Source: a virus. From it: DNA of 29,633 bases. The translations under genes and the position numbers were made by a program. The notes beneath the pieces were generated by a model, which worked only from the letters and a program-made list of their open reading frames with translations, did no database searches and was not told the origin of the DNA. The stretch is taken from positions 1-29,633 of the IMG/VR virus record IMGVR_UViG_3300036832_000379; one strand, 5' to 3'. Positions 1,558 to 24,643 of this stretch are shown here, piece after piece (the first letter of the stretch is position 1; each line of letters starts with the position of its first letter).

Positions 1558-3639
1558 ATGGACGACAGCTCAATACCAAGGGAGACCGGGAAAGACGGGC
1601 AGGACGACACCCAGGATCTCTACGAGAAGATCTGCAAGGATCTGGAAGACCGCTCTGATTGGGAAGGCCGGGTCTTGCTCTGGCACAAGATGCGGACGGC
1701 GGGCGTCAAGCGTTCTCGGAAACCGTGGCCCGGTGCCGCCGACATGCATGTCCCGATCGGGGATACTATTATAGGCAAGCTCAAGAGTTTCTACATGACC
1801 TGGGTCTTTTCGCCCGAGTTATTGGCCAGCTTTTACGCCCTGGAAGATCAGGGCGACAGCTACACCGATTCGGTGGCGCAATGGTTCGATTTCCAGCTGA
1901 GGGAGAAATCCAATTTCACCAACATGATGATGTGCGCCCTGGATTCCACCCTCCAGAACGGCATCGGTCTGGTTAAAACCTACTGGGACGCCGCCCGCAA
2001 CCAGCTGGCTTTTGCCAGCATCCATCCTTATTACCTGATTGTCCCCCCTTGGACCACCGAGATCCAGAGAGCAGACCGGGTCTGTCACGTCATGCACATG
2101 TCGGAAGCCGATTATCGCCGGAGCGGCGAGGAGTGCGGCTATAACATGGACGAGGATTTCATCGAATCGATCAAGGGCGAAGGAAAAGATGATCGCGGCA
2201 GGTTCACCCAGGAAAAGATCGAGTCCGAGGGATTGAGCTACAGCCGGATCAAGGATCTGATTGTCTTGTGGGAAGTTTATGTCCGAGGGGACGACAACAA
2301 CATCTGGGTCCACACCTTTTCCCCCCTTCAGCCGGATGAACCGGCCCGGGAAACCTTCAAGCTGCCCTACGACCATAAACAGGTTCCGATCTCCGTTCTT
2401 CCTTACGAGTTCCTCGACCCCAGTTATTTCAGTTCGCGCGGGGTGATGGAGCTGGTCCAGATGTACGAAGCGTCTGCTAGCAAGATGTGGAACGAGAAGC
2501 TGGATTACATGTCGATTGCCAACCGGCCTGTCTTGAGTTCGCAGGGCGGATCGATCAACGCCCAGAATATCCGGTGGGAGCCTGGCGCCGTTTATGATGC
2601 GGTCCTTCAATTGGTTCAGCAACCGCCGCCGCCAGTCAATTTTGACGAGGAAGTTCAGAGCAATCGCTCTTTTGCCGAGCAGCGGGTCGGGATCCCGGAC
2701 TTCGGGATCGGCCAGGACAATACCCAGACCAAGAGCCGGACCGCTACCGAGGTCAACTCGATCACCAATATCATGCAGCAGAGCAACGATCTGCGCGCCC
2801 GGGTGACCAAGAACGCGATCAACGGGGTCTTCGATCAAGCCTGGAGCATCCTCAAGCAGTACAACAAAAAGGATCTCGATTATTTCTGGCGGACCCGCCG
2901 GATTACTCTGCCGGACGCTGCTCTGGATAACAAGTACGTCCTGAGACCGAATGGTTCGGTGGATGGGTACTCTAAAGATAAAGAAATTCAAAAGCTCATG
3001 CAGCTCCGGCAGCTGGCCGGTGGCAGTCCGTGGATCATCGTCCCGGAAATCGATCGCAAGATCGTCGAGCTGATGGATGCCGGATGGATCCCGCAACTCT
3101 ATCAGGAGCCGCCTTCGGTCAGTGCCAACCAGCAGCAGAAACAGGCGCTGGAAAACTGCACCATGATGGACGGCTTCGCCCCTCAGGTCACGCCGGACGA
3201 CGATCACTTGGTTCATCTCCAGATCATGGACGGGTTCATCAACTGGTCCGCTAAACGCGGGCAGGTCATCCCGCCGGATCTTCTGATGGGCTTCATGCAG
3301 CACGGCCAGCAGCATGTGCAGGCCGGGCAAGCCGATCCCGCTTACCGGAAACAGCACGCCCAGGATCTTCAGGTCTTTGCTCAGAAGATTCAGGCCACCA
3401 TCAATCAGTTGCAGGGACCACAGCAGAAGGTTTACCCGATGGCCCAGCAGGGAGCCGCTGTCGGCCTGGCCAAGCTTCGAGGAGGTGCTCCCGGAGGGGG
3501 TGCAGGTACGCTGCCCGGCGGTCCGCCGCCAGGAGGAAATGGAGTTCCTCCTCCCGCTGCCCCGCCTCCGGTGCCGCAAGCCGGTGCGCCCGCGCCGAAT
3601 ACCGCGCCTAACCCGGTCAATGGAGCGGTGGCAGGATGA
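1558..3639 (+). CDS. Portal protein
   Basis: This 693-residue protein matches the size and pattern of podovirus portal (head-tail connector) proteins, which form the ring at one capsid vertex through which DNA enters and leaves. Diagnostic is the N-terminal WPGAADMHVP segment (residues 57-66), followed by helices that end near TLQNGIGLVKTYWD. That pattern recurs in portal proteins of this class. A typical segment with RTATEVNSI follows in the middle. The last 50 residues or so (about 642-693) are Gly/Pro/Ala-rich and probably disordered. The GAGGGG run sits directly against the ATG, too close for an ideal Shine-Dalgarno, so initiation may depend on termination of the preceding gene. A GCTAGC site lies at 2476. 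The 3' end overlaps the next gene by ATGA. Confidence 0.88.
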   Translation: MDDSSIPRETGKDGQDDTQDLYEKICKDLEDRSDWEGRVLLWHKMRTAGVKRSRKPWPGAADMHVPIGDTIIGKLKSFYMTWVFSPELLASFYALEDQGDSYTDSVAQWFDFQLREKSNFTNMMMCALDSTLQNGIGLVKTYWDAARNQLAFASIHPYYLIVPPWTTEIQRADRVCHVMHMSEADYRRSGEECGYNMDEDFIESIKGEGKDDRGRFTQEKIESEGLSYSRIKDLIVLWEVYVRGDDNNIWVHTFSPLQPDEPARETFKLPYDHKQVPISVLPYEFLDPSYFSSRGVMELVQMYEASASKMWNEKLDYMSIANRPVLSSQGGSINAQNIRWEPGAVYDAVLQLVQQPPPPVNFDEEVQSNRSFAEQRVGIPDFGIGQDNTQTKSRTATEVNSITNIMQQSNDLRARVTKNAINGVFDQAWSILKQYNKKDLDYFWRTRRITLPDAALDNKYVLRPNGSVDGYSKDKEIQKLMQLRQLAGGSPWIIVPEIDRKIVELMDAGWIPQLYQEPPSVSANQQQKQALENCTMMDGFAPQVTPDDDHLVHLQIMDGFINWSAKRGQVIPPDLLMGFMQHGQQHVQAGQADPAYRKQHAQDLQVFAQKIQATINQLQGPQQKVYPMAQQGAAVGLAKLRGGAPGGGAGTLPGGPPPGGNGVPPPAAPPPVPQAGAPAPNTAPNPVNGAVAG

Positions 3640-7006: not shown

Positions 7007-7169
7007 ACAAAAACGCAGCAAAAAGAAGTTAGGTCCAGAAACTTCCGGGGTGAAGAAGCCGGTCGACCATCTCAAGGGCCGGATCTCTGACACCCAGCAA
7101 AAGATCACCGCTGCCTTCCGCCGGATGAATCTGGCAGCTCCCAGCAGAACCTATGGCAATCGACGATAG
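6993..7169 (+). CDS. Small basic protein with TTG start (58 aa, tentative)
   Basis: The gap between the 166-residue gene and the endolysin holds an open frame that begins at TTG (6993). It is preceded by GGAG (6984-6987) at a spacing of five bases and ends inside the endolysin gene. The product is highly basic (GKQKRSKKKLGPE near the N-terminus, [19 protein letters not shown] at the end) with one probable helix. It overlaps its neighbours by 14 and 17 bases, as do other genes here. No family is recognised. The alternative is that these 150 bases are non-coding. Confidence 0.48.
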   Translation: MNSGKQKRSKKKLGPETSGVKKPVDHLKGRISDTQQKITAAFRRMNLAAPSRTYGNRR

Positions 7170-7599
7170 ATCAGCAAAGAACATCGCAACCCTCGACCCA
7201 AGGGTCCAGCCGCTGGCCACCCAGTTAATCGAGGAAGCCCAGGCGCGCGGGATCAACGCCAAAGTGATTGGCGGCACTCGGACCTACCAGGAACAGGACG
7301 ACCTCTACGCGCAGGGACGGACGAAGCCAGGAAAGATCGTGACCAAAGCACGCGGCGGCCAGAGTTGGCACAATTTCGGGCTTGCCTTTGACATCGGCAT
7401 TTTCAGCCCGGACGGCAAAGAGTATTACGGCGAAAGCGAAGCTTATCGGGAGGTTGGGAAGATCGGGGAAACGCTTGGCCTGGAATGGGGCGGGGCCTGG
7501 AAGTTCGTCGACGAGCCTCATCTGCAATATAACCCGAAAAACTACACCCTGATGCAGATGCAGGAACGCAAAGAGGAAGGAAAAGATCTTCTCGCATGA
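7153..7599 (+). CDS. Endolysin: M15-family peptidoglycan peptidase
   Basis: At 148 residues this matches single-domain M15 (VanY / L-alanyl-D-glutamate peptidase-like) endolysins, zinc enzymes that cut the peptide stems of peptidoglycan to release progeny. The family signature is present. [12 protein letters not shown] gives zinc ligands His73 and Asp80, and FVDEPHLQ gives His123 as third ligand with Asp120 as the likely catalytic base. [18 protein letters not shown] is the usual upstream substrate-site segment. There is no signal peptide, so export would need a holin. The next gene encodes a small membrane protein and overlaps by ATGA. The gene sits inside the structural cluster between head and fibre genes. 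Confidence 0.9.
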
Positions 7600-7757
7600 G
7601 CACTCTCGTAATTCTGATCATCATTCTGCTGCTCTTTGGCGGCGGCGGCGGTTACTACGGGTACAGACGGTACGGCTACGGCGGCGGTCTCGGGATCTTC
7701 GGCGTTGTCCTGATTATCCTTTTGTTGGTCTACCTGTTTGGAGGATTGCGGTTTTGA
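7596..7757 (+). CDS. Two-helix small membrane protein, DUF3309-like; candidate holin
   Basis: This 53-residue product starts by ATGA overlap with the endolysin. It has a hydrophobic helix ([12 protein letters not shown]), then a Gly/Tyr/Arg hairpin ([17 protein letters not shown]), then a second hydrophobic helix ([14 protein letters not shown]). This layout resembles the DUF3309 family of tiny membrane proteins found in bacteria and phages. The immediate coupling to the endolysin and the two-transmembrane form make a holin role reasonable, but no DUF3309 protein is known to me to be a proven holin. The 3' end carries the GGAGG that serves the next gene. Confidence 0.75.
7740..7744 (+). promoter_or_regulatory. 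Shine-Dalgarno for the TTG start of the collagen-like fibre
   Basis: GGAGG lies nine bases before TTG (7754), which overlaps the previous stop as TTGA. No ATG is available in a suitable place, and the resulting N-terminus (MSD...) resembles that of the following fibre gene. This supports the TTG start. Confidence 0.75.
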
Positions 7758-8956
7758 GTGACCCGGTGGCCAGGATCCGTTTCAAGAACAGCCCGCAAGG
7801 AATCACTGCGATGAAGCTGAATAAGCTCGTCGACATGATCGGGTCGGGCGGAGGAGGCACGGCAGGGCCTCCAGGTCCAACTGGACCTCCTGGACCAACT
7901 GGACCTCCTGGGCCGACAGGACCAAAAGGCGCTGACTCAACGGTGCCGGGACCTCCGGGTGCGACTGGTGCTACAGGACCGCAAGGTCCGCAGGGAACAC
8001 CTGGAGCAACGGGTGCGACTGGGCCGCAAGGAATTCCAGGGACGACAGGTGCTCAAGGGCCGATCGGGTTAACGGGTGCAACCGGTTCACAAGGGCCAAA
8101 GGGCGACACTGGCGCTGCTGGTGCGACGGGTCCAACTGGTCCTGCGAGTACAGTGCCCGGGCCTCAGGGTGCGACCGGGCCACAGGGTCCGATTGGATTG
8201 ACGGGGCCAGCGGGGGCAGATTCAACGGTGCCCGGTCCGCAGGGACCGCAAGGAACGCAAGGAACGCAAGGAACGCCTGGGGCGACTGGAGCACAAGGTC
8301 CGAAAGGCGATACCGGCGCAACTGGTTCACAAGGGCCGATTGGGTTAACGGGATCGACGGGAGCGACTGGTCCGGCGGGTGCAGACTCGACAGTGCCAGG
8401 GCCGCAGGGGCCAAAAGGTGATCCAGGAGCGACTGGCTCGCAAGGTATCCCGGGAACAGCAGGGGCAACCGGGCCGCAAGGGCCAAAGGGTGATCCAGGC
8501 GCTACGGGCGCAACCGGACCAACGGGGGCACAAGGAATACCGGGTACAGCTGGGGCAACCGGGGCGACAGGCCCGCAAGGTCCTCAAGGTGTTCCCGGAA
8601 CCAGCGCGAGTTTGGGAACGTGGATTGCATTGACTCTTGCTAGCGGGTGGACCGGGGCGGGTGATTACCGGATTCAGACTGATGGGACTGTTTCAATGGT
8701 TGTGACTCGCGGAAAAATCACGCAAGCTTCCGGTGCTGCGTTGCTAGCATTCACCCTCCCCTCAGGCGCACGTCCGTCTTTGGCCCGAATGCTGATGTTA
8801 GCAGGGATGCAGACCGAAGGCGAGACGATCTACCACGCTAACGTCGATACTACCGGCACCGTGACTATCACCCCGGTGGTGCGGGCGGTTTTCACTTGGC
8901 CAGTCACTACCACCGCGCAGGACATTTATCTCGACGGACTTTCTTTCAGCTTATGA
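7754..8956 (+). CDS. Collagen-like tail fibre protein
   Basis: The 400-residue product has three parts. Residues 1-37 form an N-terminal segment containing ITAMKLN, shared with the next gene. Residues 38 to about 283 are an almost uninterrupted Gly-X-Y collagen repeat, rich in GPQ, GAT and GPT. It is broken by four short inserts of the form ADSTVPGP or ASTVPGP. Residues 286-400 form a Ser/Thr/Gly-rich beta-type domain that probably caps or nucleates the trimer. Collagen repeats in phages form rigid triple-helical stalks. A fibre role is inferred from the repeat, the shared N-terminus and the position before another fibre gene. The start is TTG with a good Shine-Dalgarno. GCTAGC sites lie at 8639 and 8743, only in the C-terminal domain. 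Confidence 0.88.
7865..8602 (+). repeat. Gly-X-Y coding repeat, with short perfect tandem units
   Basis: This is the repetitive DNA of the collagen-like stalk. It contains a 9-base unit repeated three times (GCAAGGAAC, 8248-8274) and near-repeats of 18 bases around 7868-7920. [10 protein letters not shown]-coding block recurs near 7930, 8215 and 8382. Such DNA can change length by slippage or recombination, giving stalks of different length. Confidence 0.8.
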
Positions 8957-10299
8957 GCGACATCACGACAACTAGAATCTTCGCGGATGGCGAGAAGAAT
9001 ATCACTGCCGCCAAGCTGAACGACATCATTGGCAGTGCGGCAATCCAACCGGCTTTTGTCTCTGCGAAGCCGGTGGCTAGCTCGGTGGACCCGGCGGATA
9101 ACCTGCTGCTTTTGAACAAGGCCGGGGCCTACGCGCAAGTGCCGTTTTCCACCTTGTCGAGTTCGATCACTGGCAGCGCAAACCCGAATCCTGCAATCTG
9201 GGATGTCAGGCTGAAATCTTTTAACGCCATCGGCAACCCGAATTTTGAAATTGGGCAGTCAGTTGCGGGTGGGGCAATACCAGTAGTGTCAGCAGGGGGT
9301 AGATGCGCTGATCGTTGGTTTATTCAACAGACGGCATCCGCTACTTTAGCCGCTAACACCCAGAGGAACGGTAACACGGCGACTGGCAATCAGATCTTAG
9401 TGCCCGGAACAAATTTCTCGATCTCAAATGTCTTTTTGCGAACAACCTTAACTACTCAACAGGCTTCTTTAGCGGCTGGCGATATTCTTTGGATTCTCCA
9501 GAATGTTGAGGGGACTTATTTCAGAGAGCTGCAAAATGACGTGCATTCGATCCAAATTTTGTGTCGGTCGAGTGTGGCCGGATTAAAGTTTAGTTTGAAT
9601 TTGCGTGATGGTCCATCGACTACCAAAAGTTTGTCCAAACTATGTACTATTCCAACCGCAAACACCTGGACGCTTCTGACTTTTCCGAATCTGCCTGCTT
9701 GGCCTCCGACCAGTAATTCTTTGTCCAGTGCGGGCGTCCTCGCATATTATCTATCAGTTACTTTAGCGAGCGGAACGACGTACATCCCTCCGGCTAATGA
9801 CACTTGGCAGAACGGGAATTTTATCGGTGCAGTGGGCCAAGATAATTTTGCCAGCAAGCCCGTTAATTCGACTTTTGATATTGCCTTTGTCCAGCACGAG
9901 CCGGGTGCGGTTTGTTCGCAGTTGATGGACTTTTCTTGGGCCACAAATTATGATGCTTGTTTGCGCTATTATCAGAAATCATACGATTACGCGATTGTAC
10001 CAGGAGCGGCGAATCAACAAGCGGGAGAAATTATTTTTGTTAGTCCAGCGGTAGCGACCGGTGGATTGTATGTGCCGGTCAGGTTCCCGAAAATTATGGC
10101 GAAAGATCCATCGGCTATGGGGTATAGTCCGATCACGGGGTTGAGTGGAGCGATTCGTAATCTGACGGCGAATGCGGATATAGGTTATGCAGGATTTGTG
10201 CAAGCCGGACAAACTGGTTTTGGCGGATGGTCATTTGGCGCCGGAATTACCGCTAGTTCGTCTATGGCAGGTCATTACACGATGGATACCGGTTGGTGA
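8953..10299 (+). CDS. Tail fibre / receptor-binding protein with C-terminal lectin-like domain
   Basis: The start at 8953 is chosen because it forms an ATGA overlap with the collagen gene and gives an N-terminus ([16 protein letters not shown], then ITAAKLN) like that gene's ITAMKLN. The product has 448 residues. After a linker, the segment [13 protein letters not shown] begins a beta-rich domain. DRWF, later the [15 protein letters not shown] strand, and CLRYYQKSY near residue 340 follow the pattern of a jelly-roll sugar-binding domain common at the ends of phage fibres. It probably binds a surface polysaccharide. The body of the gene, from about 9240, has clearly lower GC (about 43% in sampled lines against about 57% in the hub gene) and no GCTAGC site after 9076. 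This suggests the domain was acquired by exchange. Confidence 0.8.
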
Positions 10300-13415: not shown

Positions 13416-13955
13416 TTGGGAGCCTCTAAAACTCCAGACCCGGTTACCCCGGGTGAAGCTGCCCAGGCGGCAGTTGGCACTGCTGGCGCGGGCGAAATGA
13501 TGGCGATGGCCAATCAGCCGATCGAGCAATACGGTCAGCTGGCAACCACCGAACAGCTGGGACCAGCCCAGATGCAGACCCAGCAGGCGCTAGCAAATCA
13601 GGCGGCTCTGCAAGGGGCGCGCGCCCAGATGGATATTCAATCCCGGGTCGATCCGCAAGCTTACGCTCAAAGACAAATGCGGATGAATGCGGCCAATGAG
13701 CGTCTGGGTAAATTGTATGGGGTGGCAAACCCGAACGCCATCTCGTATCAGGGCGGCAGTCAGGCGTATCAGATTCCAGGCTCGGAGAATCAGCCTGACC
13801 TTTCCAAGTTGCGGCAGATTGCCAATGCGGTGGCCTCCAATGTTTCAACTGCCGGTGTTAACAAGGAAGGCGCTAACCCGGTCTTGAAAGGCCCAACTAA
13901 ATCGTTGCCTGTCACTGCGGGAACCTTTCCTTCGCAACCTTACAGCTACCTTTAA
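13416..13955 (+). CDS. Internal virion protein, Ala/Gln-rich (putative, 179 aa)
   Basis: The start is TTG with a strong Shine-Dalgarno. The product is rich in Ala, Gln, Gly and Met (MGASKTPDPVTPGEAA, then AQMQTQQALANQAALQG). It contains an N-terminal helix with a small-residue pattern (TAGAGEMMAMANQ), a helical middle, and a Ser/Pro-rich tail. The composition and the position at the head of the internal-protein cluster resemble small ejection proteins such as T7 gp14, but no direct similarity was established. It ends directly against the next ATG (TAA-ATG with no gap). Confidence 0.65.
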   Translation: MGASKTPDPVTPGEAAQAAVGTAGAGEMMAMANQPIEQYGQLATTEQLGPAQMQTQQALANQAALQGARAQMDIQSRVDPQAYAQRQMRMNAANERLGKLYGVANPNAISYQGGSQAYQIPGSENQPDLSKLRQIANAVASNVSTAGVNKEGANPVLKGPTKSLPVTAGTFPSQPYSYL

Positions 13956-15458
13956 ATGGCAACCACCCCGGTCCAAGGTCAAATCGTTAGCACCCTTCCC
14001 GATGCGGGTTGGGGCGATTCGACGCTGGTCAACTGGTACAACCAGAACAAGGGAAAATATTACTGGGATGCGCAAGGTGACCAGAAGCAGATCCCGACCA
14101 GCGGCAACCCTAACGCGGGCCAAATTCGCGGGTACGTTAATCAGGGCACCTTTCAGGGGATGCAGACCACTGATCCAGCAGCAGCCCAGACAGCTCAGAC
14201 AGCACAAGCAGCACAAGCAGCTCAAGCCCAGGCGGCAACGGCAGCTGGAGGGGCTGGAGGGGCTGGAGGAACGGCAGCTGGCGTAAACAGTACGAATTCA
14301 AGCGGAGCTACACCTATGGCAAATTCCTATTATTCACCGACCACCGGCCAGCCACAGGTCAGCTCGCAGGATGCGATCAATTATTACGCGGCGATGGGGG
14401 GCAACCCGAACATCGATGCCGGGACCGCGATGTCCTATTTTACCGCTAAGAACCCGAATTTCGGTGCTAGCGGAGTCGATCCCCAGGCCGCGATCAATTA
14501 TTACGTCCAGCAAGGTGGTAACCCGAAGATTGATCCGGCGACCGCTGTTTCGTTTTACGAGGCTCAGCATCCACAGGAATTAGCCAAAGGGGTGGCGGAC
14601 GCGGCCAAAACGCCGGAGCAACGCGCCCTGGAGCAGATGGCCCAGACCGATCCGAACACCGAAGCTTTGCGCAATCAGCTGTCCGGCTCTTACTCGACTT
14701 CGCTTGCTCAAGGGGCGAAACCAAGTGCCTCCGATTTCCAGAGCTACCTGGACACTTATAAGCAGGTTGATCCGACAGACGCTGCCGGGAACGCCGCTTT
14801 AAGCAAGCAGTTATCCGATCAGGTGGCTCTGGGAAGCCAGCTGGACCCGGTGACCGCCCGCCAAGTCGAGCAGGCCACTCGGGCTGGCCAAGTTGCTCGC
14901 GGAAACGTGTACGGCACTCCGCAGATGGTCCAGGAAGCGATGACCACCGGGCAAGCGGGCTTAGCCTTGCAGCAGCAGCGGCAGCAAGCCATGCAATCGT
15001 ACCTGGGCAGCGGGGTAACCCAAGGCGACATCGCCCTCAACATGTATAACCAGGGGCAAGCCAATCTTCGCTCCAACCAACAAGCGACCCTCGGATATCT
15101 CGGGAGCGGCAGCACGCCGTATCAGGCCGGGGCTTCATATCTGAGTGCAGCCGAAGGTAATGCTGCGCAGGCCGCGCAAGGCGGGCCACAATATAACCCG
15201 GCCAGCTTGGGCAACGTCTCCGGCCAGCAGCAGCAGCAGTACGGGCTCGACATTGGAAGCCAAGCCCAGAATTATTTCAACAGCCTGAACAACGCTTACG
15301 CCGGTGGCGCAGGAGGAAAGACTAAAAACCAGACGGCAGCGGCACTTGGCGGTGCGGCATCCGGGGCTATCGCCGGAATACCGGCAGCAGGTGCTACCTA
15401 TGGAGGATCAGTGGTAGGAGGAGCAATCGCCGGAGGTTTAAGCGGCTACTATTCGTAA
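13956..15458 (+). CDS. Internal/ejection virion protein with duplicated motif and glycine-zipper tail
   Basis: The 500-residue product begins right at the previous stop. After a Trp/Tyr-rich N-terminus and an Ala/Gln/Gly linker (about 75-110) it carries two copies of a 30-residue unit: DAINYYAAMGGNPNIDAGTA (139-158) and AAINYYVQQGGNPKIDPATA (178-197). Long Gln/Ala helices follow. The last 45 residues are a hydrophobic small-residue stretch of the glycine-zipper type (ALGGAASGAIAGIPAAGA, then GGSVVGGAIAGGLSGYY). Such tails insert into or line up within membranes. This suggests a channel-forming ejection protein for the envelope; function is inferred from composition and position. Confidence 0.72.
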   Translation: MATTPVQGQIVSTLPDAGWGDSTLVNWYNQNKGKYYWDAQGDQKQIPTSGNPNAGQIRGYVNQGTFQGMQTTDPAAAQTAQTAQAAQAAQAQAATAAGGAGGAGGTAAGVNSTNSSGATPMANSYYSPTTGQPQVSSQDAINYYAAMGGNPNIDAGTAMSYFTAKNPNFGASGVDPQAAINYYVQQGGNPKIDPATAVSFYEAQHPQELAKGVADAAKTPEQRALEQMAQTDPNTEALRNQLSGSYSTSLAQGAKPSASDFQSYLDTYKQVDPTDAAGNAALSKQLSDQVALGSQLDPVTARQVEQATRAGQVARGNVYGTPQMVQEAMTTGQAGLALQQQRQQAMQSYLGSGVTQGDIALNMYNQGQANLRSNQQATLGYLGSGSTPYQAGASYLSAAEGNAAQAAQGGPQYNPASLGNVSGQQQQQYGLDIGSQAQNYFNSLNNAYAGGAGGKTKNQTAAALGGAASGAIAGIPAAGATYGGSVVGGAIAGGLSGYYS

Positions 15459-15832: not shown

Positions 15833-16963
15833 ATGGCAATCAATTATTTGCAACGGATTCAGGCCAGGAATCAGGCTAATGTGCCTAGCGATTTTTCGCG
15901 CGGCGCTGCTGCTGGCAAAAGCCTTATCGGTGATGCGATGGGTAACATTGCCAAAGCGATTGATACCGCTAAGAAAGATGCCTTAGCCAATAAGCTGATG
16001 AACACGCAGGATGCTCCGCGTGCCGCGTTGGTGTCACCCGGCTTTGCGTCTGGGAGTGCGGGAGGTGGTGCAAATCCTTCGGCCCCTCAAGCTGATATAC
16101 CTGATCCAGACCCAGACCCGGTTCAGACCAATCAGCCTGGGGCATCTATCAACCCGGACTTTCAGCCTGAATACACTTTTCAGGACATGCCCGACAACAG
16201 CCTGAATGGAGCAGCTGCCAAAGCGAAAGCGGCGTCATCGCTATCAGCCACTCCGGCGGGACCAACTCCAAACGTTATTGCTCCAGGGGTCAGCACTGCC
16301 GGGACTGCGCCAGCTTCCGGCGGCGTGGATGAAATGAATCTGCGTAAGGAAATGCTGGCAATGCAGGTACAGAAACAAGCGATAGCTTCATCCCAGGCCA
16401 AAGCCGCCGATGAAACTGCTGAAGCAGCTGGGACCGGTCGTTACGCGATGGATGCTGCTCAGAAACGAGCTAATCTGCTCCATACCCAGGCGGAGATCGA
16501 AGCTTTGAAAAACAAGCCATCTAAAGAGATTAAAAATCCTCCAGCGGTCAATATCGCTTCAGAGCCGGTGATAGATCAAGCTCAGTTGAACCGTCACATC
16601 AACGGCACGTATGGCAACGGAGTCGCTGAAGGATTAGCTCAACTCGTTAGCGACGGCAGTAAAGACGCCACTATTGATCCACAAACCCTGCAAAGTTCTA
16701 ATATGGTGACAATCCCTTTAGGAGCAAATAAATCCGCCAAGATCCCGGTAAGCGAAGCGGCGAATTTCGTTAAACAAATGAACGCGTTACGGCTTAAACA
16801 AGGACAGTCAGCGTATCGAGTTCCAGGCGAGGACCAGACGACAGGTTCCAGTGCAGCCATTCCTTATCCTGCCAGCAATAATCTAGACGTTTATTCGAGG
16901 GCTCCAGGGACTTGGGTTCGACTGCCGAACGGAAAAGTGGCTCAGGTTCCGGCCAGGAAATAA
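15833..16963 (+). CDS. Internal virion protein (putative, 376 aa)
   Basis: The N-terminal 55 residues form a helix with many small residues (MAINYLQRIQARNQANVPSD, then RGAAAGKSLIGDAMGNIAKAI). A long Pro/Gly/Ala linker follows, then a charged helix (VDEMNLRKEMLAMQVQKQAI to AEIEALKNKP) that may form a coiled coil. The C-terminal third looks folded and ends in WVRLPNGKVAQVPARK. It lies immediately before the giant protein with a three-base gap, the usual place of a core/ejection partner. No catalytic motif is seen. Unlike most of the window it holds no GCTAGC site. Confidence 0.66.
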   Translation: MAINYLQRIQARNQANVPSDFSRGAAAGKSLIGDAMGNIAKAIDTAKKDALANKLMNTQDAPRAALVSPGFASGSAGGGANPSAPQADIPDPDPDPVQTNQPGASINPDFQPEYTFQDMPDNSLNGAAAKAKAASSLSATPAGPTPNVIAPGVSTAGTAPASGGVDEMNLRKEMLAMQVQKQAIASSQAKAADETAEAAGTGRYAMDAAQKRANLLHTQAEIEALKNKPSKEIKNPPAVNIASEPVIDQAQLNRHINGTYGNGVAEGLAQLVSDGSKDATIDPQTLQSSNMVTIPLGANKSAKIPVSEAANFVKQMNALRLKQGQSAYRVPGEDQTTGSSAAIPYPASNNLDVYSRAPGTWVRLPNGKVAQVPARK

Positions 16964-16966
16964 AAA

Positions 16967-19900
16967 GTGGCTGTTACGGCAGATCTGGAAGAGGAGATTC
17001 GGCAGAAAAAACAGGCCGAAGCCGAAGACGCTCTTTCTTTACTGGAAGATGACGCGAGCCGAGCCCAAGCTCAAGACGGGAGCGGCGATAGTTACGAAGC
17101 CTCTTCCGAAGCGGTCAGCAAATCAGTTGCGCCATCAGAAAAGGTTTCCAAACATTACGGGGATTGGCGGGATTGGCCCTCTCTTGATACCAAGACGGAC
17201 GAACAAGTGGTGGCGGCACCCAAAATGCTTCCCGACCAAATCGATGTCGGGTTTGGTCCGGGAGTAGCCCCACCGGATATCAACCCGGTTGAAGAACGGC
17301 AACGGAACATGCCGGGCGCGATCGATCTCCCCAGCGTCGAAGCGCAGATTTTGAAGCCCACCCAGCCGGTCTCGGTCTCTTCGCGGGAACTGGACGAAGC
17401 GCCCGCCGCCGAGCTGGTGAAAAACCCGGACTATACGCCGAGCGGGCAGCTGGTGACCCCGGAAACACCGCCGGTATTGCCCTATGTCCGTCGCGCTGAG
17501 TTAGCGAAACCTCTCACGGGCACGACTGGCTTTGCGGTGGCCGATCCCGACCCGGATAACCCGGACTACAAAACGCCACTATCGCCAAGTGAAGAGAAAC
17601 AATTTCGATCGTGGGTAAAAGCTAACAAGATCCCATTCGACGACTCGCCATCCAGTGATTACGACATGCGCGGGTTTTGGAAAGCTGCGCAAGAAGGGGA
17701 TCCTGACGCCAGCACTGCGGTCAGTAAATTTGATGGCAGAATCCATTTTAGCGATAAATTCAAAACACCATTTCATCGAACGTTTTCCAATGAATCGCAG
17801 TACGCGACCAGCGACGCTCCGCATTGGGAAGGTGATCGGCTGATTGATAATCAAGGCAATGTAGTCGCGGACGAAACGCCACCCACGAAAAACGTGCCTG
17901 GATTCATTTCGGGGAGCAAGAATGCCATTCTAAATCCAGAAGCGGGACTCTCACCAAAACAGGCGTACCCGGAACAGATTGTTAGTCCAGAAGAGAAGGC
18001 GGGAACCAAAAGTGTCGTTGATCAGCCAGCATTGCCTGCAACGACGACAACGCCGCAACCCGTCACGACACCAGCACCTGGAGCTAAAGAACCAGCGGTA
18101 CCAACAACGGCCCAACCAGACAACTGGAAAAGCTGGTTAACTGAAGATGGCACGGTAGCGGACCCAACTTTCAAGCCGGATGTTAAAACTCCAAATATCC
18201 AGCCCGGCACGGGAAGCTCGCGAGTTCAGGAGGGCGCGAGTCTCAAAGGAACTAATCCGGTCTTGACCGAGATTGTTTCCGCTGCCGCTAACGCGTTGCC
18301 AGAAGGGTACACCATTCGCGCCACTTCCGGGGTGCGCACTACTGGGCAAGGACAGCACACGCTTGGGAAAGCACAGGACTGGCAGATTTACGGCCCTGAC
18401 GGTAAGCCGATTGTCAACCGCGGCGATGATGCAACCGGCCTTTATACTCTGCTAGCACGGAACGCTTACGGGTATCAGGAAAAGTATCACCCGGAACTGA
18501 CCGGGCTATTTCAGTGGGGCGGACAATTCGGAACTTCCACCGCCAACAATCCGAACGAACCCGACTTGATGCACTTCGACATCGGAGGTCGTCGCGGGAG
18601 GATTGAGCGTTACAGCCGGGAATCGATCGGTGCAGCATTGCCTCCAGGAGAAGGTGCTGGTCCGGCCCAGCCAGAAGAGTCGCCACTCAATACGCTGGTT
18701 AAGCTGGATTCCAGTGGCCTGAATGTCACCCATTTCGGGTATAAGGGCGACGCTAATCTGGACTCTGATAGCGCCGCCGGACACGGCAAATACGTCAGCC
18801 AGATGATTCCTGGTTATGACGTGGCTCTGAATGCAGCGGCGGCTAGACTGGTCGGGAATCCGCAACCGGGAGAAACCTTTCAATACGCGGGACGTGAATG
18901 GCGGTATGGCGATAAGGTTCCCGAAAAGTACAGCGACGCACGATTTGATATCTATGATCAATCCGGCAACATTTTAACCGGCGACATGCCAGTGGGCAAG
19001 GCAGGCGCGGCGGCTGCTGCGGCTGGACCTAAAAAGGAGGATTGGGAATCCTGGGATACGATAGACCCTGCCGTTGCCGATGCTGCTAACAAAAAACTGA
19101 CAGAGGAGGTCAACGCCCAGGCGGCTAAGCTGGATGCTTTCAAGGAAGCACACCAAAACATCGGTGAAGTTTTGCAGATGCTTGATAAACCAGCGTCTGA
19201 TAACGGAGTGACTCCAGAAGTTCAGCAAGCCTGGGGAGACGATTTTAAAAAGTCAGCAGCCAATCACGTTCGAGACGTTTTGCAACAACCGAAACTGACC
19301 GACGAACAGGCGCTGGCCAAAGCTCGTGAGAACCCTCTCCTGGGAAGCGTTGGGGAGGTGATGAGTAAATGGATCCCGAACATCAAGAAGGCCGGGATAG
19401 ATTTCCAATCCATGCTCTTAATCACCAGTGACCCTGCTGGTCCGATGGGCAAACGCCGGATTGAACAGTTCGCTCACGCGATGGAGCCGAACGCTACTCC
19501 GGCCCAGATCAAGGAATTCATTGACCATTTGTATAACCTGCCGCCGGACGTGCTAGCGCAGACACTTTCTATTTACGCCAACGACATGAGCAAGCCTGGG
19601 CCACAAGGCCCAAGCTCGCTGACCGGCCCGACCCAAGAGAAGCCATACGTGCCGCCGGGATCGATCGATATTCCGGCGCTGATCGAGGACGTTAAGGCCC
19701 AAGGCAATCCAGCAGCACTAGCAGCGTATAAAGCGCGGGAAGCAACTGTAGTTTCTCTACAAGCCGAGGCAGCCAAACAGTTGCGGTCATCTCCAAATTT
19801 TGAGGGAACACCGTGGCAAAATTGGACTCAGTTGGGCGGGCAAGCGCCGGTCATGATTGCCCAGATGCTGACCGGACCAGCGGGTGAAGCGACGGTCGCA

Positions 19901-22900
19901 GCACAGATTTTACAACAATCGAAAGAAGACATTAAACGGGAACATCCGTTCATGTCCGAAGAAGACATTGATGGACAGGCTTCTGCTAGCACGCTTTTAC
20001 AGCTGGCTCCGCAATTGCTCGGGTTCAGGGCAATGGGCGGCAAACTGGGCGCATTAACCGGGGTAATCAAGAATTTTGAGAACCCATTAGTGAGAATTGG
20101 GTCAGGAGCCACAGCTCATTTTGGAGTTACTGTCGCCGCCTCGGAAGCTCAGAAGATCGCCAAGAACGTGGCGGAAGGGCGGAACTGGAATGAAGGTTTA
20201 GGGCAGAATATTCTGGAGGAAGGAATACCTGGACTGATTGGCGGTGGGCTAGCAACTTTGCACCGGGGCGAGCCGCCGCCGGTCTCACCCCTTAAGCCGC
20301 CGCCGCCGGAAGAACCGCCGCTGATCAAGCCGGAAGAAAAGATCGAGCCGCCGGACCCGACCAGACCGCCGCCGCCGCCGGATGATACGCGCCGGACTGA
20401 GCAGGAACCGCCACCGCCAATCGACCCGCAAAGAGAGCAGAAACGCGAGCCGGACACGCCGACCACCCTGGAGCCGGAGACCGAGCCGGAACAGCAGCAT
20501 GCCGACCAGCAGCAGGCGGAACTAGACCAGCAGAACAAGGACGCTTACGAACGCGACAAGGCGAAGGTAGAAGGCAGGCAAGTTGAAGAACCGCCACCGG
20601 AATCTTCCGGTCTGGAAATGGAAGCAAAGGACGCTTACGGAAATGTAATAGGCAAAACCGAAGCACGAAAAGGAAGATCGTCGGCTCGCACCACCGTTGG
20701 TGAAATGTTAGATGCTGGAGGGGACAGTGCTGTTCTCGCTCAAAAAGCGTTAGATGACGGCTGGAGTCGAGACGATCCGATGCCGAAACCCGGCGAACAG
20801 CCGCCGATCCCACAGCCGCCACCGCCGGAGCCGCCGGTCACGCCCCCTGAACCGGCTAAAGAACAAGCTCGCGTTGAGAAGAAAGCCGCGCAACAACGCG
20901 AATCAGTGGCTTCCGATAAATTCCTGACTGAAGAGGATCACGCCCAGCTCAAGCCGGACGTGGAAGCAGTCCAGCAAGCTCATCGTGAGATGAGGGACAA
21001 CCCGACCACTGGGAATACCAAGAAGTACAATGACACTTACGGGAAACTTCAGGATAAAGTCTTCGCCAAGTTCAAACCGATCTTTGACCTGTTGGGAATA
21101 AACAGCGCCCCGGCTGAAGGCCCATTCGGTATTAGAACGGGTTTCTCCGCATCAACGGATGAAAGCGGTTTTTACAGGTTAAACCACGACAGCGTAGCTA
21201 ACGCCAAATGGATACGTGATAAGCTGGATGACGGGACTAATCCGGCTCAGATGATCTCCAAAGCGTACCAGGAAGAGTTGATGCACTTCCTGCATTTCAA
21301 CACCGAAAAGAAAGGGTGGCAGAAGCGGATCAAGGAGCCTGGGGCAAAGCTAAGTTTCATCGAGCACATCCGTGACAGCAGTAAGAAGGCGTTTACCCAA
21401 TACATCAGGATGCAGCGAGCCGCCCGAGCCAGGGGCGATCACGCGACAGCAGACGCGATGTGGAACGCTCTCCGCGATTCGGCTCACGCATACGATCACC
21501 CATTTGCCGGGTTGGGTTATGGATCAGCACATACGCAAGCTTGGGAAAATACGATTAATAAACTGTGGGAAGACATGCGCTCACCGGATCTGGCCACCAG
21601 GGGAAAAGCGGTAATAGACGCTCATTCGCTGTACGCGGAACTGGTCCGGCAAACTTCGCAGCTGGCGCACGGGACCGAGATTACCGAACATTCGGCTAAC
21701 CGGGGCGTCTGGAAGATGGCGCAGGATTGGTGGCAAGGGGTGCTCGATCATCTGACTGATCTGAAAGACCGGCTGACTAACAAGGACGACCCCTTAAGCA
21801 AGACCCGGCTGGCCGAGACGGTTAAAGGGGTAAAGAAAGAGATCGCGGCGATCGATAAACAGCTGGCGAAAAGCAAACCAGCAACGGTCGATCTTGCTAG
21901 CGAGATCGCCAAGGCACACGCCGCCGAAGACCTGCTGAGCGCAGCTGCTCCCGGAGGTCTTCCCCCTAAACCGAAAAAGCAATCCTGGGAAGAGTTCAAA
22001 ACCAAGATGGCAATGGTCTTCAAGTCGGGCGAATCGGCGATGCTCGACAACCCTGAGACCAGGACGCTGGCCTTCAAGATCAAGCAGCGGCCCAGCATCG
22101 AGCAACGGCTCGGAGCTGATACAGAAGTTCACAAGGTCTATGACGCGATGGACGCGGCCCACAAGGCGAACCCGAAAACCTTTCACGCGGAATGGGAAGC
22201 GTATCATCGGGCGGAACAATCCGGGCAGCCGTTACCGGCAGTCGCGCCGGAAACCCGGGCAGCCATCGACGCCTGGAAGAATTCTGCTAGCAAGATGTTC
22301 GACGAGATGGAACGCCTGAACACCAAGGTGGTCACCTCGAAAGGGAACATCCGGCCAGCTCGCCGGATCGGTGCTAACTACTGGCCCAGGATGTTATCGG
22401 ACGATTTCAAGGACATCGTGGCGAACCGGAATGCGCACCGGGCAGGCGACTGGCAGACCCTGGTAAATAAAGAGATCGCTGCCGGGCACATTAAGAACGA
22501 GCAGGAGATGCTCGACAAGTACGCGGGCCTGCATCATTCGGACGAGACCAGTAACGAACCATTCAGCAACATGGAACGGGCGCGCGAGCTGAATGTGGCG
22601 CACGATTATTACGATTTCTCCCCTAAGGCCGCGATCAAATATCTGAACCGGGGCGTTAAACGGCTGGCCACCATCGAAGCGTTTGGGCAGAAGCTCTCTA
22701 ATAAAGGGAAAGATTATTTCGATCACTCGATCGACGACGTGGAGAAGTCCACTACCCTGACCGGCAAGCAGAAAGAGGCAGTCCGCAACCGGATCAACCA
22801 GGAACGTGCCGCCGAGTATCAGCAGCAGCGGCTGGATAACACCAGCGACTGGAGCGACAAGGTGCGAACATTTGCCACTGGAGCACAGCTGGGCAACCCG

Positions 22901-24643
22901 ATTACTTCGCTGATGAACCTAATCGGCGGCGGGGCGCACAACCTGATCCAGAGCGGTCCGGTCAACTTCCTGAAGACGGTAGGCGACATGCCGAATTTCA
23001 ACAAGCTCCGGCTGAAGGCCAGAGAACTAAACATCCTGCGAGCCAACATGCGGGACGTGATGCACGACATGGAGCTGACCCAGAACCAGACCTGGGCAAC
23101 TAGAAAGATTCAGGGCTTTACTAAAGGGATGCTGAAATGGGGCGGGCAACATCTGACGGAAGACATTAACAGGGTCTTCGCAATGCAGAACGGAAAGAAC
23201 TGGCTGAACGACTGGAGCCGAAACTTCGGCAGAAACAACGCCAAGGGTCGAGCAGCTAACGAACAGATCCAACGCCTGGGATTCGCACCCGGCGACCTCC
23301 AGAGCCTGTATAACGAGCACGGCACCGGCACTTTAAGCGATGATTTCTTGAGACAGTGGGTGATGCAAACGCATGGAAATTACGGTCCGTCCCAGACCGC
23401 TGCCCACATCTTCCATAGCCCGGTTGGAAAAGCCTTGCTCCAATACCAGCAATGGGGCGCGAATGCCAGCAGGTTTCTGACCCGCGAGTTTATTGCTCCG
23501 CTGACCCGGTCGACCGTGAACTTGAAGAGCGGGACTTCGGCATCACGGGCTGACTTCACGTATCACCTGGGACGGAACATCGGGATGATCGGCACTATGG
23601 TTGGCTCAGGGGCGCTGGCGGTGATGGGAAGAAACATGATCCTGGGCCGGAAAGATCAGGACCCCACGGCTGCTGATATCATTAAGCGAGTTCAGATAGG
23701 GGATTACGGAGCGGCTTTAGGGGAAGCACTACAGAAATCCTGGAGCAGCATCATTGCTTCCGGGATCGCGGGATCATTCGGCAATTACGCCGACCTGCTA
23801 GGCAGTGCTACTCAGGGAACGATCGGTTTCAAGACCAAAGACCCACGAGTACCGGCCAGCATGCAGCCGATCACTTCGCTGGTGAATCTGGCAAACAGTA
23901 TTATCCATGAAGGTAAACCGAGCCCGAAAGCAGTCGACGATTTCTTCAGTAGTCTTCTCTCGCAATACAAATACGGGTCGGAGTTTGCCAAAAACGTTGC
24001 TAGCGCGGCAAATATCCCGACTCCATGGAACATTGCCAAAGCGCATCAAGCCGATCAGGATTTGAATTTCCTGAGGATTGAAACCCGGCAATACGAGAAA
24101 GAATCGCCGGAAATTCAGCATAAGATCGCGATCTCCGGCCCCCGGCCTCAGATCCAGTATGTCCGCAACCGTGCTAGCGCGGCTAAGGACGATATTCACG
24201 CGGCGTTAATCACTGGTGACGCGGATAAAGTCAATCAGGCGATCAATGATTACAAGAATACCTTGGCAGTGCCTGATCAGGCAAAAGCAGTTGATAATCT
24301 AAGGTCGTCTATCGTTACCTCGTTCCCGATCAAACCGGGTGGCAGCGAGAAGCTGTCAGACATCCAGCAGTTCCTCCAATGGGCCAAGGACAAGCTGCCG
24401 GAAGGGGAAGCCCGCCGGATTTTTGCCAGCGCCCAGACCTACGCCAAGACGGCGGTAGAGACCGGCCTGTTCGATAAAGAGAAGAAGATGCAGTACCTCT
24501 CGAAGCTGAACTACGACACCTTCGGGGCTCCAGCAGTAAAAATTGCCAGTCAACACGCCGCCAACGTGGGGCTAGCAAAATTCAACGCAATTATCGCGCA
24601 GCGTAAAGCGCAGGCAGCGCAGGCAGCGTTGCAGAATCGTTAG
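16967..24643 (+). CDS. Giant multidomain internal virion protein (2558 aa) with peptidoglycan-active domains
   Basis: GTG start three bases after the previous stop. A disordered N-terminus leads to an M15-like zinc peptidase domain (about 415-550): GQHTLGKAQD gives His464 and Asp471, PDLMHFDI gives Asp533 and His536. Residues about 585-670 (LNVTHFGYKGD to RFDIYDQSG) resemble the 3D/double-psi barrel modules of wall-lytic proteins. Three W-x-x-W linkers (near 66, 386 and 692) bracket these domains. A helical region follows, then two Pro-rich linkers (about 1100-1180 and 1275-1300), a possible metal site EELMHFLH (1436-1443), and a long helical C-terminal half with a hydrophobic segment near 2204-2226. 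Length and position fit the ejected core proteins of podoviruses, which digest and cross the cell wall. It ends in an Ala/Gln helix. The domain calls are by motif only. Confidence 0.85.
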   Translation: MAVTADLEEEIRQKKQAEAEDALSLLEDDASRAQAQDGSGDSYEASSEAVSKSVAPSEKVSKHYGDWRDWPSLDTKTDEQVVAAPKMLPDQIDVGFGPGVAPPDINPVEERQRNMPGAIDLPSVEAQILKPTQPVSVSSRELDEAPAAELVKNPDYTPSGQLVTPETPPVLPYVRRAELAKPLTGTTGFAVADPDPDNPDYKTPLSPSEEKQFRSWVKANKIPFDDSPSSDYDMRGFWKAAQEGDPDASTAVSKFDGRIHFSDKFKTPFHRTFSNESQYATSDAPHWEGDRLIDNQGNVVADETPPTKNVPGFISGSKNAILNPEAGLSPKQAYPEQIVSPEEKAGTKSVVDQPALPATTTTPQPVTTPAPGAKEPAVPTTAQPDNWKSWLTEDGTVADPTFKPDVKTPNIQPGTGSSRVQEGASLKGTNPVLTEIVSAAANALPEGYTIRATSGVRTTGQGQHTLGKAQDWQIYGPDGKPIVNRGDDATGLYTLLARNAYGYQEKYHPELTGLFQWGGQFGTSTANNPNEPDLMHFDIGGRRGRIERYSRESIGAALPPGEGAGPAQPEESPLNTLVKLDSSGLNVTHFGYKGDANLDSDSAAGHGKYVSQMIPGYDVALNAAAARLVGNPQPGETFQYAGREWRYGDKVPEKYSDARFDIYDQSGNILTGDMPVGKAGAAAAAAGPKKEDWESWDTIDPAVADAANKKLTEEVNAQAAKLDAFKEAHQNIGEVLQMLDKPASDNGVTPEVQQAWGDDFKKSAANHVRDVLQQPKLTDEQALAKARENPLLGSVGEVMSKWIPNIKKAGIDFQSMLLITSDPAGPMGKRRIEQFAHAMEPNATPAQIKEFIDHLYNLPPDVLAQTLSIYANDMSKPGPQGPSSLTGPTQEKPYVPPGSIDIPALIEDVKAQGNPAALAAYKAREATVVSLQAEAAKQLRSSPNFEGTPWQNWTQLGGQAPVMIAQMLTGPAGEATVAAQILQQSKEDIKREHPFMSEEDIDGQASASTLLQLAPQLLGFRAMGGKLGALTGVIKNFENPLVRIGSGATAHFGVTVAASEAQKIAKNVAEGRNWNEGLGQNILEEGIPGLIGGGLATLHRGEPPPVSPLKPPPPEEPPLIKPEEKIEPPDPTRPPPPPDDTRRTEQEPPPPIDPQREQKREPDTPTTLEPETEPEQQHADQQQAELDQQNKDAYERDKAKVEGRQVEEPPPESSGLEMEAKDAYGNVIGKTEARKGRSSARTTVGEMLDAGGDSAVLAQKALDDGWSRDDPMPKPGEQPPIPQPPPPEPPVTPPEPAKEQARVEKKAAQQRESVASDKFLTEEDHAQLKPDVEAVQQAHREMRDNPTTGNTKKYNDTYGKLQDKVFAKFKPIFDLLGINSAPAEGPFGIRTGFSASTDESGFYRLNHDSVANAKWIRDKLDDGTNPAQMISKAYQEELMHFLHFNTEKKGWQKRIKEPGAKLSFIEHIRDSSKKAFTQYIRMQRAARARGDHATADAMWNALRDSAHAYDHPFAGLGYGSAHTQAWENTINKLWEDMRSPDLATRGKAVIDAHSLYAELVRQTSQLAHGTEITEHSANRGVWKMAQDWWQGVLDHLTDLKDRLTNKDDPLSKTRLAETVKGVKKEIAAIDKQLAKSKPATVDLASEIAKAHAAEDLLSAAAPGGLPPKPKKQSWEEFKTKMAMVFKSGESAMLDNPETRTLAFKIKQRPSIEQRLGADTEVHKVYDAMDAAHKANPKTFHAEWEAYHRAEQSGQPLPAVAPETRAAIDAWKNSASKMFDEMERLNTKVVTSKGNIRPARRIGANYWPRMLSDDFKDIVANRNAHRAGDWQTLVNKEIAAGHIKNEQEMLDKYAGLHHSDETSNEPFSNMERARELNVAHDYYDFSPKAAIKYLNRGVKRLATIEAFGQKLSNKGKDYFDHSIDDVEKSTTLTGKQKEAVRNRINQERAAEYQQQRLDNTSDWSDKVRTFATGAQLGNPITSLMNLIGGGAHNLIQSGPVNFLKTVGDMPNFNKLRLKARELNILRANMRDVMHDMELTQNQTWATRKIQGFTKGMLKWGGQHLTEDINRVFAMQNGKNWLNDWSRNFGRNNAKGRAANEQIQRLGFAPGDLQSLYNEHGTGTLSDDFLRQWVMQTHGNYGPSQTAAHIFHSPVGKALLQYQQWGANASRFLTREFIAPLTRSTVNLKSGTSASRADFTYHLGRNIGMIGTMVGSGALAVMGRNMILGRKDQDPTAADIIKRVQIGDYGAALGEALQKSWSSIIASGIAGSFGNYADLLGSATQGTIGFKTKDPRVPASMQPITSLVNLANSIIHEGKPSPKAVDDFFSSLLSQYKYGSEFAKNVASAANIPTPWNIAKAHQADQDLNFLRIETRQYEKESPEIQHKIAISGPRPQIQYVRNRASAAKDDIHAALITGDADKVNQAINDYKNTLAVPDQAKAVDNLRSSIVTSFPIKPGGSEKLSDIQQFLQWAKDKLPEGEARRIFASAQTYAKTAVETGLFDKEKKMQYLSKLNYDTFGAPAVKIASQHAANVGLAKFNAIIAQRKAQAAQAALQNR

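Follow-up and report, generated by a model that had tools for sequence, protein, structure and literature searches.

Ejection genes of T7-like phages form a cluster that ends with a larger gp16-like gene (PMC8954989). The hydrolase domain can move from one ejection protein to another, and mosaic hydrolase domains have been described (PMC8954989). Phage SU10 has five ejection proteins that exit its head; one of them, gp20, has transglycosylase activity and breaks down murein (PMC9509320). We analysed a stretch of DNA of 29,633 nucleotides from a soil phage (the window) that encodes a protein of 2558 residues, here called P0001. Our analysis indicates that P0001 is probably a large gp16-like internal virion or ejection protein of a phage with an SU10-type portal, and that its N-terminal region carries an exchangeable wall-hydrolase cassette. 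Three results come directly from computation: the M15 module and its zinc residues, the exchange of cassettes among relatives, and the synteny of the locus.

Genome context and layout of P0001

The portal gene of the window (1558..3639, + strand) is of the SU10 type (PF23899, 7.5e-11), which suggests a short tail. Relatives were identified via their capsid protein, which is 76-87% identical to that of the window, and the gene order portal-scaffold-capsid-tail-gD-gE-gF-giant gene is kept in them. On the basis of this synteny, gD (13416..13955, + strand, 179 aa) is the first gene of a probable ejection cluster and is gp14-sized, followed on the same strand by gE (13956..15458, 500 aa) and gF (15833..16963, 376 aa). 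The gene for P0001 is the last and largest of the cluster, which lies after the tail genes. The relative L066 has two homologous versions of gE side by side (7053-8474 and 8480-9625). The window also encodes a 400-aa collagen-like GxP repeat protein (7754-8956) upstream of a tail-fibre gene.

PHROG and PDB searches gave no sequence match of P0001 to T7 gp16, SU10 gp20 or any PHROG. By position and layout, P0001 should nevertheless be an ejection protein of the gp16 or SU10 kind and would be expected to work like T7 gp16 or SU10 gp20; synteny likewise points to a location in the virion. An earlier note on this DNA had proposed a self-contained machine for crossing the wall. This goes beyond the evidence, as the other probable ejection proteins gD, gE and gF are encoded directly upstream.

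The open reading frame of P0001 extends from 16967 to 24643 on the + strand as one uninterrupted frame with a GTG start, exactly as had been claimed. AGGAA is found a few bases 5' of the start, and the stop codon of the upstream gene lies 3 bases before it. The residues and segments singled out previously (H464, D471, D533, H536, 585-670 and EELMHFLH at 1436-1443) were all located at the positions given for them. Pfam, NCBIfam and PHROG scans with the whole protein and with pieces of it produced no convincing match except via homologues.

P0001 begins with a segment, DLxEEIRxR..ADAL, that is kept in the relatives occupying the same genomic slot (residues 1-25, 17041 being the last nucleotide of 16967..17041). 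Proline-rich linkers had been claimed, and these were borne out: residues 1-415 contain 12% proline and residues 1131-1340 (20357..20986) contain 16%. The first of three DWxxW junction motifs, YGDWRDWPSLDT, was recognized by eye at residues 63-80 (17153..17206); the second and third are at residues 385-399 (18119..18163) and 689-705 (19031..19081). Such junction repeats occur in 2 or 3 copies per protein (P0001, L060, L061, L063, L068, L055 and L072). The motif type varies by phage, being DWxxW in the window and L060, GYxFxPV in L061 and L063, and NYxLxP in L068; the copies, chosen partly by eye, are alike within one protein. PAPDxLxQVERxELV units are repeated in the N-terminal linkers of L055, L060, L061, L063, L066 and L068 (L063 by eye). 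Residues 203-305 (17573..17881) form a module common with the C-terminus of ORF25 of the Tunturiibacter phage Tunturi_3 from Finnish soil, where it occupies residues 964-1069 of 1070 (51% identity, 1e-23).

The M15 zinc peptidase module

The M15 module spans residues 417-560 (18215..18646). The motif H-x2-G-x-A-x-D occurs once in P0001, and the protein contains the H-x6-D and D/E-x2-H metal and catalytic signature of M15 peptidases. H464-x6-D471 (18356..18379) holds the predicted zinc ligands with the spacing found in Ply500 and LysB4; D533-x2-H536 (18563..18574) holds the predicted catalytic Asp and third zinc ligand in the DxxH arrangement of the same enzymes. A scan of viral contigs recovered homologues of this module that are 55-72% identical and belong to proteins unrelated to P0001 outside it, and a second scan using an alignment of these first homologues reached relatives down to 36% identity. 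None of H464, D471, D533 and H536 varies across 13 other loci, of which some are near-identical to one another, down to that 36% identity; this is far above chance. In the alignment of 14 sequences S454, W517 and G518 are also without variation.

The M15 segment of P0001 itself matched no Pfam, NCBIfam or PHROG family; Pfam was reached via relatives and structure. Homologues at 36-51% identity match Peptidase_M15_4 (PF13539; 9.4e-5), mostly just below the curated cut-off. An AlphaFold model of the module had a mean pLDDT of 73. Foldseek searches with this model placed the L-Ala-D-Glu peptidase of RB49 first (E 6.8e-4, probability 1.00), followed by LysECD7 and LysB4, while VIA gave LysECD7 a Z of 8.1 (3.4 A, 102 aligned) and ChiX a Z of 7.4. 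Thus, the predicted model has the M15 fold, and for the M15 part of segment 400-680 the fold check proposed earlier came out in favour of the claim. From the invariant residues, the Peptidase_M15_4 matches of the homologues and the model, the M15-like zinc peptidase proposed for these four residues is a sound assignment as to predicted fold and active-site residues, and the module is predicted to act as a zinc-dependent murein peptidase.

The accessory module and the EELMHFLH string

The segment following the peptidase had been described as a 3D/double-psi-barrel-like domain at residues 585-670. A real module is conserved here, with limits of about 571-685 (18677..19021); it is 77% identical in L057 and 63% identical in L080. 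Each of the three proteins in which it was found has a wall hydrolase directly before it, namely the M15 module in the window and an amidase in L057 and L080, and by this association it is probably wall-related. The barrel fold, on the other hand, was not confirmed. At a threshold of E 10, ten records gave no hit to the 3D (PF06725) or DPBB (PF03330) profile, while control genomes did. The AlphaFold model, built on three sequences, had a pLDDT of 64 and no significant structure match; this low-confidence model reached a Z of 2.4-2.7 at most against designed DPBB proteins. LolC/MacB periplasmic domains were considered and rejected, as their Foldseek/VIA scores (Z up to 4.9) are at the level of a common arrangement and the model is poor.

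EELMHFLH (residues 1436-1443, 21272-21295) had been put forward as a possible metal site. The string reads EExxHxxH rather than HExxH, a motif that occurs nowhere in P0001. [HE]E..H is expected 0.31 times per shuffle of the protein; the exact EE..H..H string is rarer, at 0.004 per shuffle, although it was chosen after being seen. No relatives of the region were found in searches of viral contigs and phage records, so no measure of conservation applies, and the metal site is without support.

These results bear on whether P0001 combines two or three separate wall enzymes, i.e. an M15 peptidase, a 3D/DPBB lytic transglycosylase and a metal-site enzyme, as a self-contained wall-crossing machine. 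The position of 571-685 directly after the hydrolase in the window, L057 and L080 fits such an arrangement, and a glycan cutter beside the M15 peptidase would also fit, as an SLT domain or a tail lysozyme is paired with M15 elsewhere. However, the failure of the 3D and DPBB profiles alongside matching controls, the low Z against designed barrels and the absence of HExxH lead us to regard this arrangement as improbable. The broader claim of more than one wall-active module is partly supported: the M15 module is well supported, the second is a genuine module conserved beside hydrolases whose 3D/DPBB nature is unproven, and the metal site lacks support.

Exchange of wall-hydrolase cassettes among relatives

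The slot relatives of P0001 are proteins of 1072-1575 aa that have a core in common with it, the Ala-rich region of residues 707-1130 (19085..20356). Most of them consist of a hydrolase, then one of two accessory modules, then the common core. The hydrolase differs between phages. Pfam Amidase_2 was found in L057, L061 and L068, just below the cut-off in L066 and by eye in L063. The protein of L055 contains M15_4 (27.9 bits, above the cut-off), that of L060 contains a third, unclassified hydrolase-like module, and that of L072 contains no recognizable hydrolase. A SleB-like label for the L060 module was a guess and was dropped; by eye this module is similar to one of L075, and Pfam gave no match for it. 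The accessory module of the 571-685 type is present in the window and L057, and a second type, A4, in L055, L061, L066, L068 and L072. A4 has no PDB match and no convincing Pfam match, and homology between it and the 571-685 module found no support, with only 19 aligned columns.

L057 is the closest relative and has an amidase instead of M15. Its 571-685 module is 77% identical to that of the window, and the region 571-1091 is 35% identical. As these two proteins have the same accessory module and core but a different enzyme, they provide the clearest sign of exchange. From these data we conclude that the wall-hydrolase cassette has been swapped between relatives on a conserved core, so that P0001 has an exchangeable N-terminal wall hydrolase as gp16-like ejection proteins do.

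The M15 module is also found outside the slot, in tape-measure-like proteins with mostly weak PHROG matches. In some of these it is accompanied by a second wall module, which is Phage_lysozyme2 in L091 (1.1e-26), SLT in L092 (8.7e-6) and, weakly, a lysozyme in L074. The suggestion that few internal proteins combine such modules is weakened by the pairing of the same M15 with SLT (L092) or tail lysozyme (L091), and by the mosaic domains already described (PMC8954989). The occurrence of the closest M15 homologues in these proteins also raises the question of whether P0001 is the tape-measure protein of a long-tailed phage. We consider this highly unlikely in view of the SU10-type portal, the ejection-like cluster and the lack of any tape-measure match for P0001 itself.

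A second M15 enzyme in the window

A separate endolysin is encoded at 7153-7599, which brings the M15 enzymes of this phage to two. The endolysin is a different M15, close to Ply500 and LysB4, and its alignment with them shows the H-x6-D, WGG, D-x2-H layout. Hedgehog domains have the same fold as the M15 peptidases but do not act as murein peptidases; among the structure matches of the P0001 module they rank after the M15 L-Ala-D-Glu peptidases. Since the activity of the P0001 module is a prediction and the fold is common with Hedgehog domains, the module might be inactive and merely bind the wall, or might act at lysis or virion maturation. Against inactivity, 4 of 4 metal and catalytic residues have been kept over the whole range of homologues, and the endolysin can already serve lysis. 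We therefore view these alternatives, too, as highly unlikely.

The C-terminal half of P0001

The slot relatives end with a conserved C-terminal domain after the core, and the gene that follows encodes a separate protein of 523-551 aa. The window lacks both this domain and the gene of about 530 aa, and has residues 1341-2558 (20987..24640) in their place. No relatives of this C-terminal half were found in viral contigs, phage records or GTDB genomes; the contig and GTDB genome scans need exact short peptides and exclude close relatives only. Descent from the downstream protein of about 530 aa by divergence was considered and discarded, the hhalign score being 16.8 compared to a shuffle mean of 17.6. 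Residues 2442-2547 matched staphylokinase chains weakly in phmmer (E 0.0022 with a very long query) and also PHROG 4358 (0.066); we judged both to be chance. Scanning P0001 by Kyte-Doolittle 19-mers revealed no clear transmembrane segment; the maximum, 1.22 at residues 2208-2226, is below ordinary transmembrane hydrophobicity, and the long helical ejection region of the earlier note is a conjecture.

GC3 was 0.46-0.62 for gF and the N-terminal modules (15833-19040), 0.64-0.68 for the C-terminal half (20972-24640) and 0.67-0.72 for the other phage genes. An assembly artefact joining two phages, to which the orphan residues 1341-2558 and the missing downstream gene could point, is extremely improbable, since the two flanks come from a single phage lineage (recT and exo likewise match the relative G001), the C-terminal GC3 is nearer to that of the other phage genes than the N-terminal modules are, and the frame is single and uninterrupted. 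It is conceivable, but we think it unlikely, that residues 1341-2558 are an unrelated replacement for the C-terminal domain and partner of about 530 residues of the relatives, such that one chain now combines the wall cutter, the periplasmic core and passage through the inner membrane, with the junction motifs marking and helping cassette exchange or docking.

Proposed function and comparison with known systems

As a gp16-like ejection protein, P0001 would exit the head via the tail at infection. The M15 peptidase would then cut murein stem peptides locally, and the 571-685 module might bind the wall or also cut it. The common core and the C-terminal half may assemble in the periplasm and inner membrane, where the DNA would pass. 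What is new here is a variant of the ejection-protein type with M15. It is of interest for the swap series and for its orphan C-terminal half rather than as a multi-enzyme machine, which is unproven. One wall-hydrolase cassette is common to probable ejection proteins and tape-measure-like proteins. Moreover, the relatives form a natural series in which close backbones, as measured by the capsid identities, carry entry proteins predicted to cut different wall bonds: the amide (amidase), the stem peptide (M15) or, where no enzyme was recognized, none assigned. The swap series makes the contribution of the entry hydrolase, and whether it tracks host wall chemistry, directly testable.

P0001 resembles SU10 gp20 and Kuravirus gp20-24 (PMC9509320) in the SU10-type portal and in the presence of several ejection proteins, one of them murein-cutting. 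SU10 gp20 is described as a transglycosylase, whereas P0001 is predicted to be an M15 peptidase; PHROG and PDB, the libraries searched, revealed no homology. T7 gp16 (PMC8954989) is likewise the product of the largest and last gene of its cluster, with an N-terminal wall hydrolase followed by a long region. It differs in being a transglycosylase of 1318 aa, compared to 2558 aa, M15 and long Pro-rich linkers in P0001, and the two have no detectable sequence similarity. The M15 L-Ala-D-Glu peptidases of RB49, LysECD7, ChiX, T5 and Ply500 agree with the P0001 module in fold, H-x6-D, D-x2-H and WGG. However, these are endolysins or cellular enzymes, whereas the M15 of P0001 is a module within a giant structural protein and has no Pfam match of its own. 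Finally, the proteins of L091 and L092 carry the same M15 module together with another module on a single polypeptide, as P0001 does, but on another backbone protein and with a recognized glycosidase or transglycosylase as the partner.
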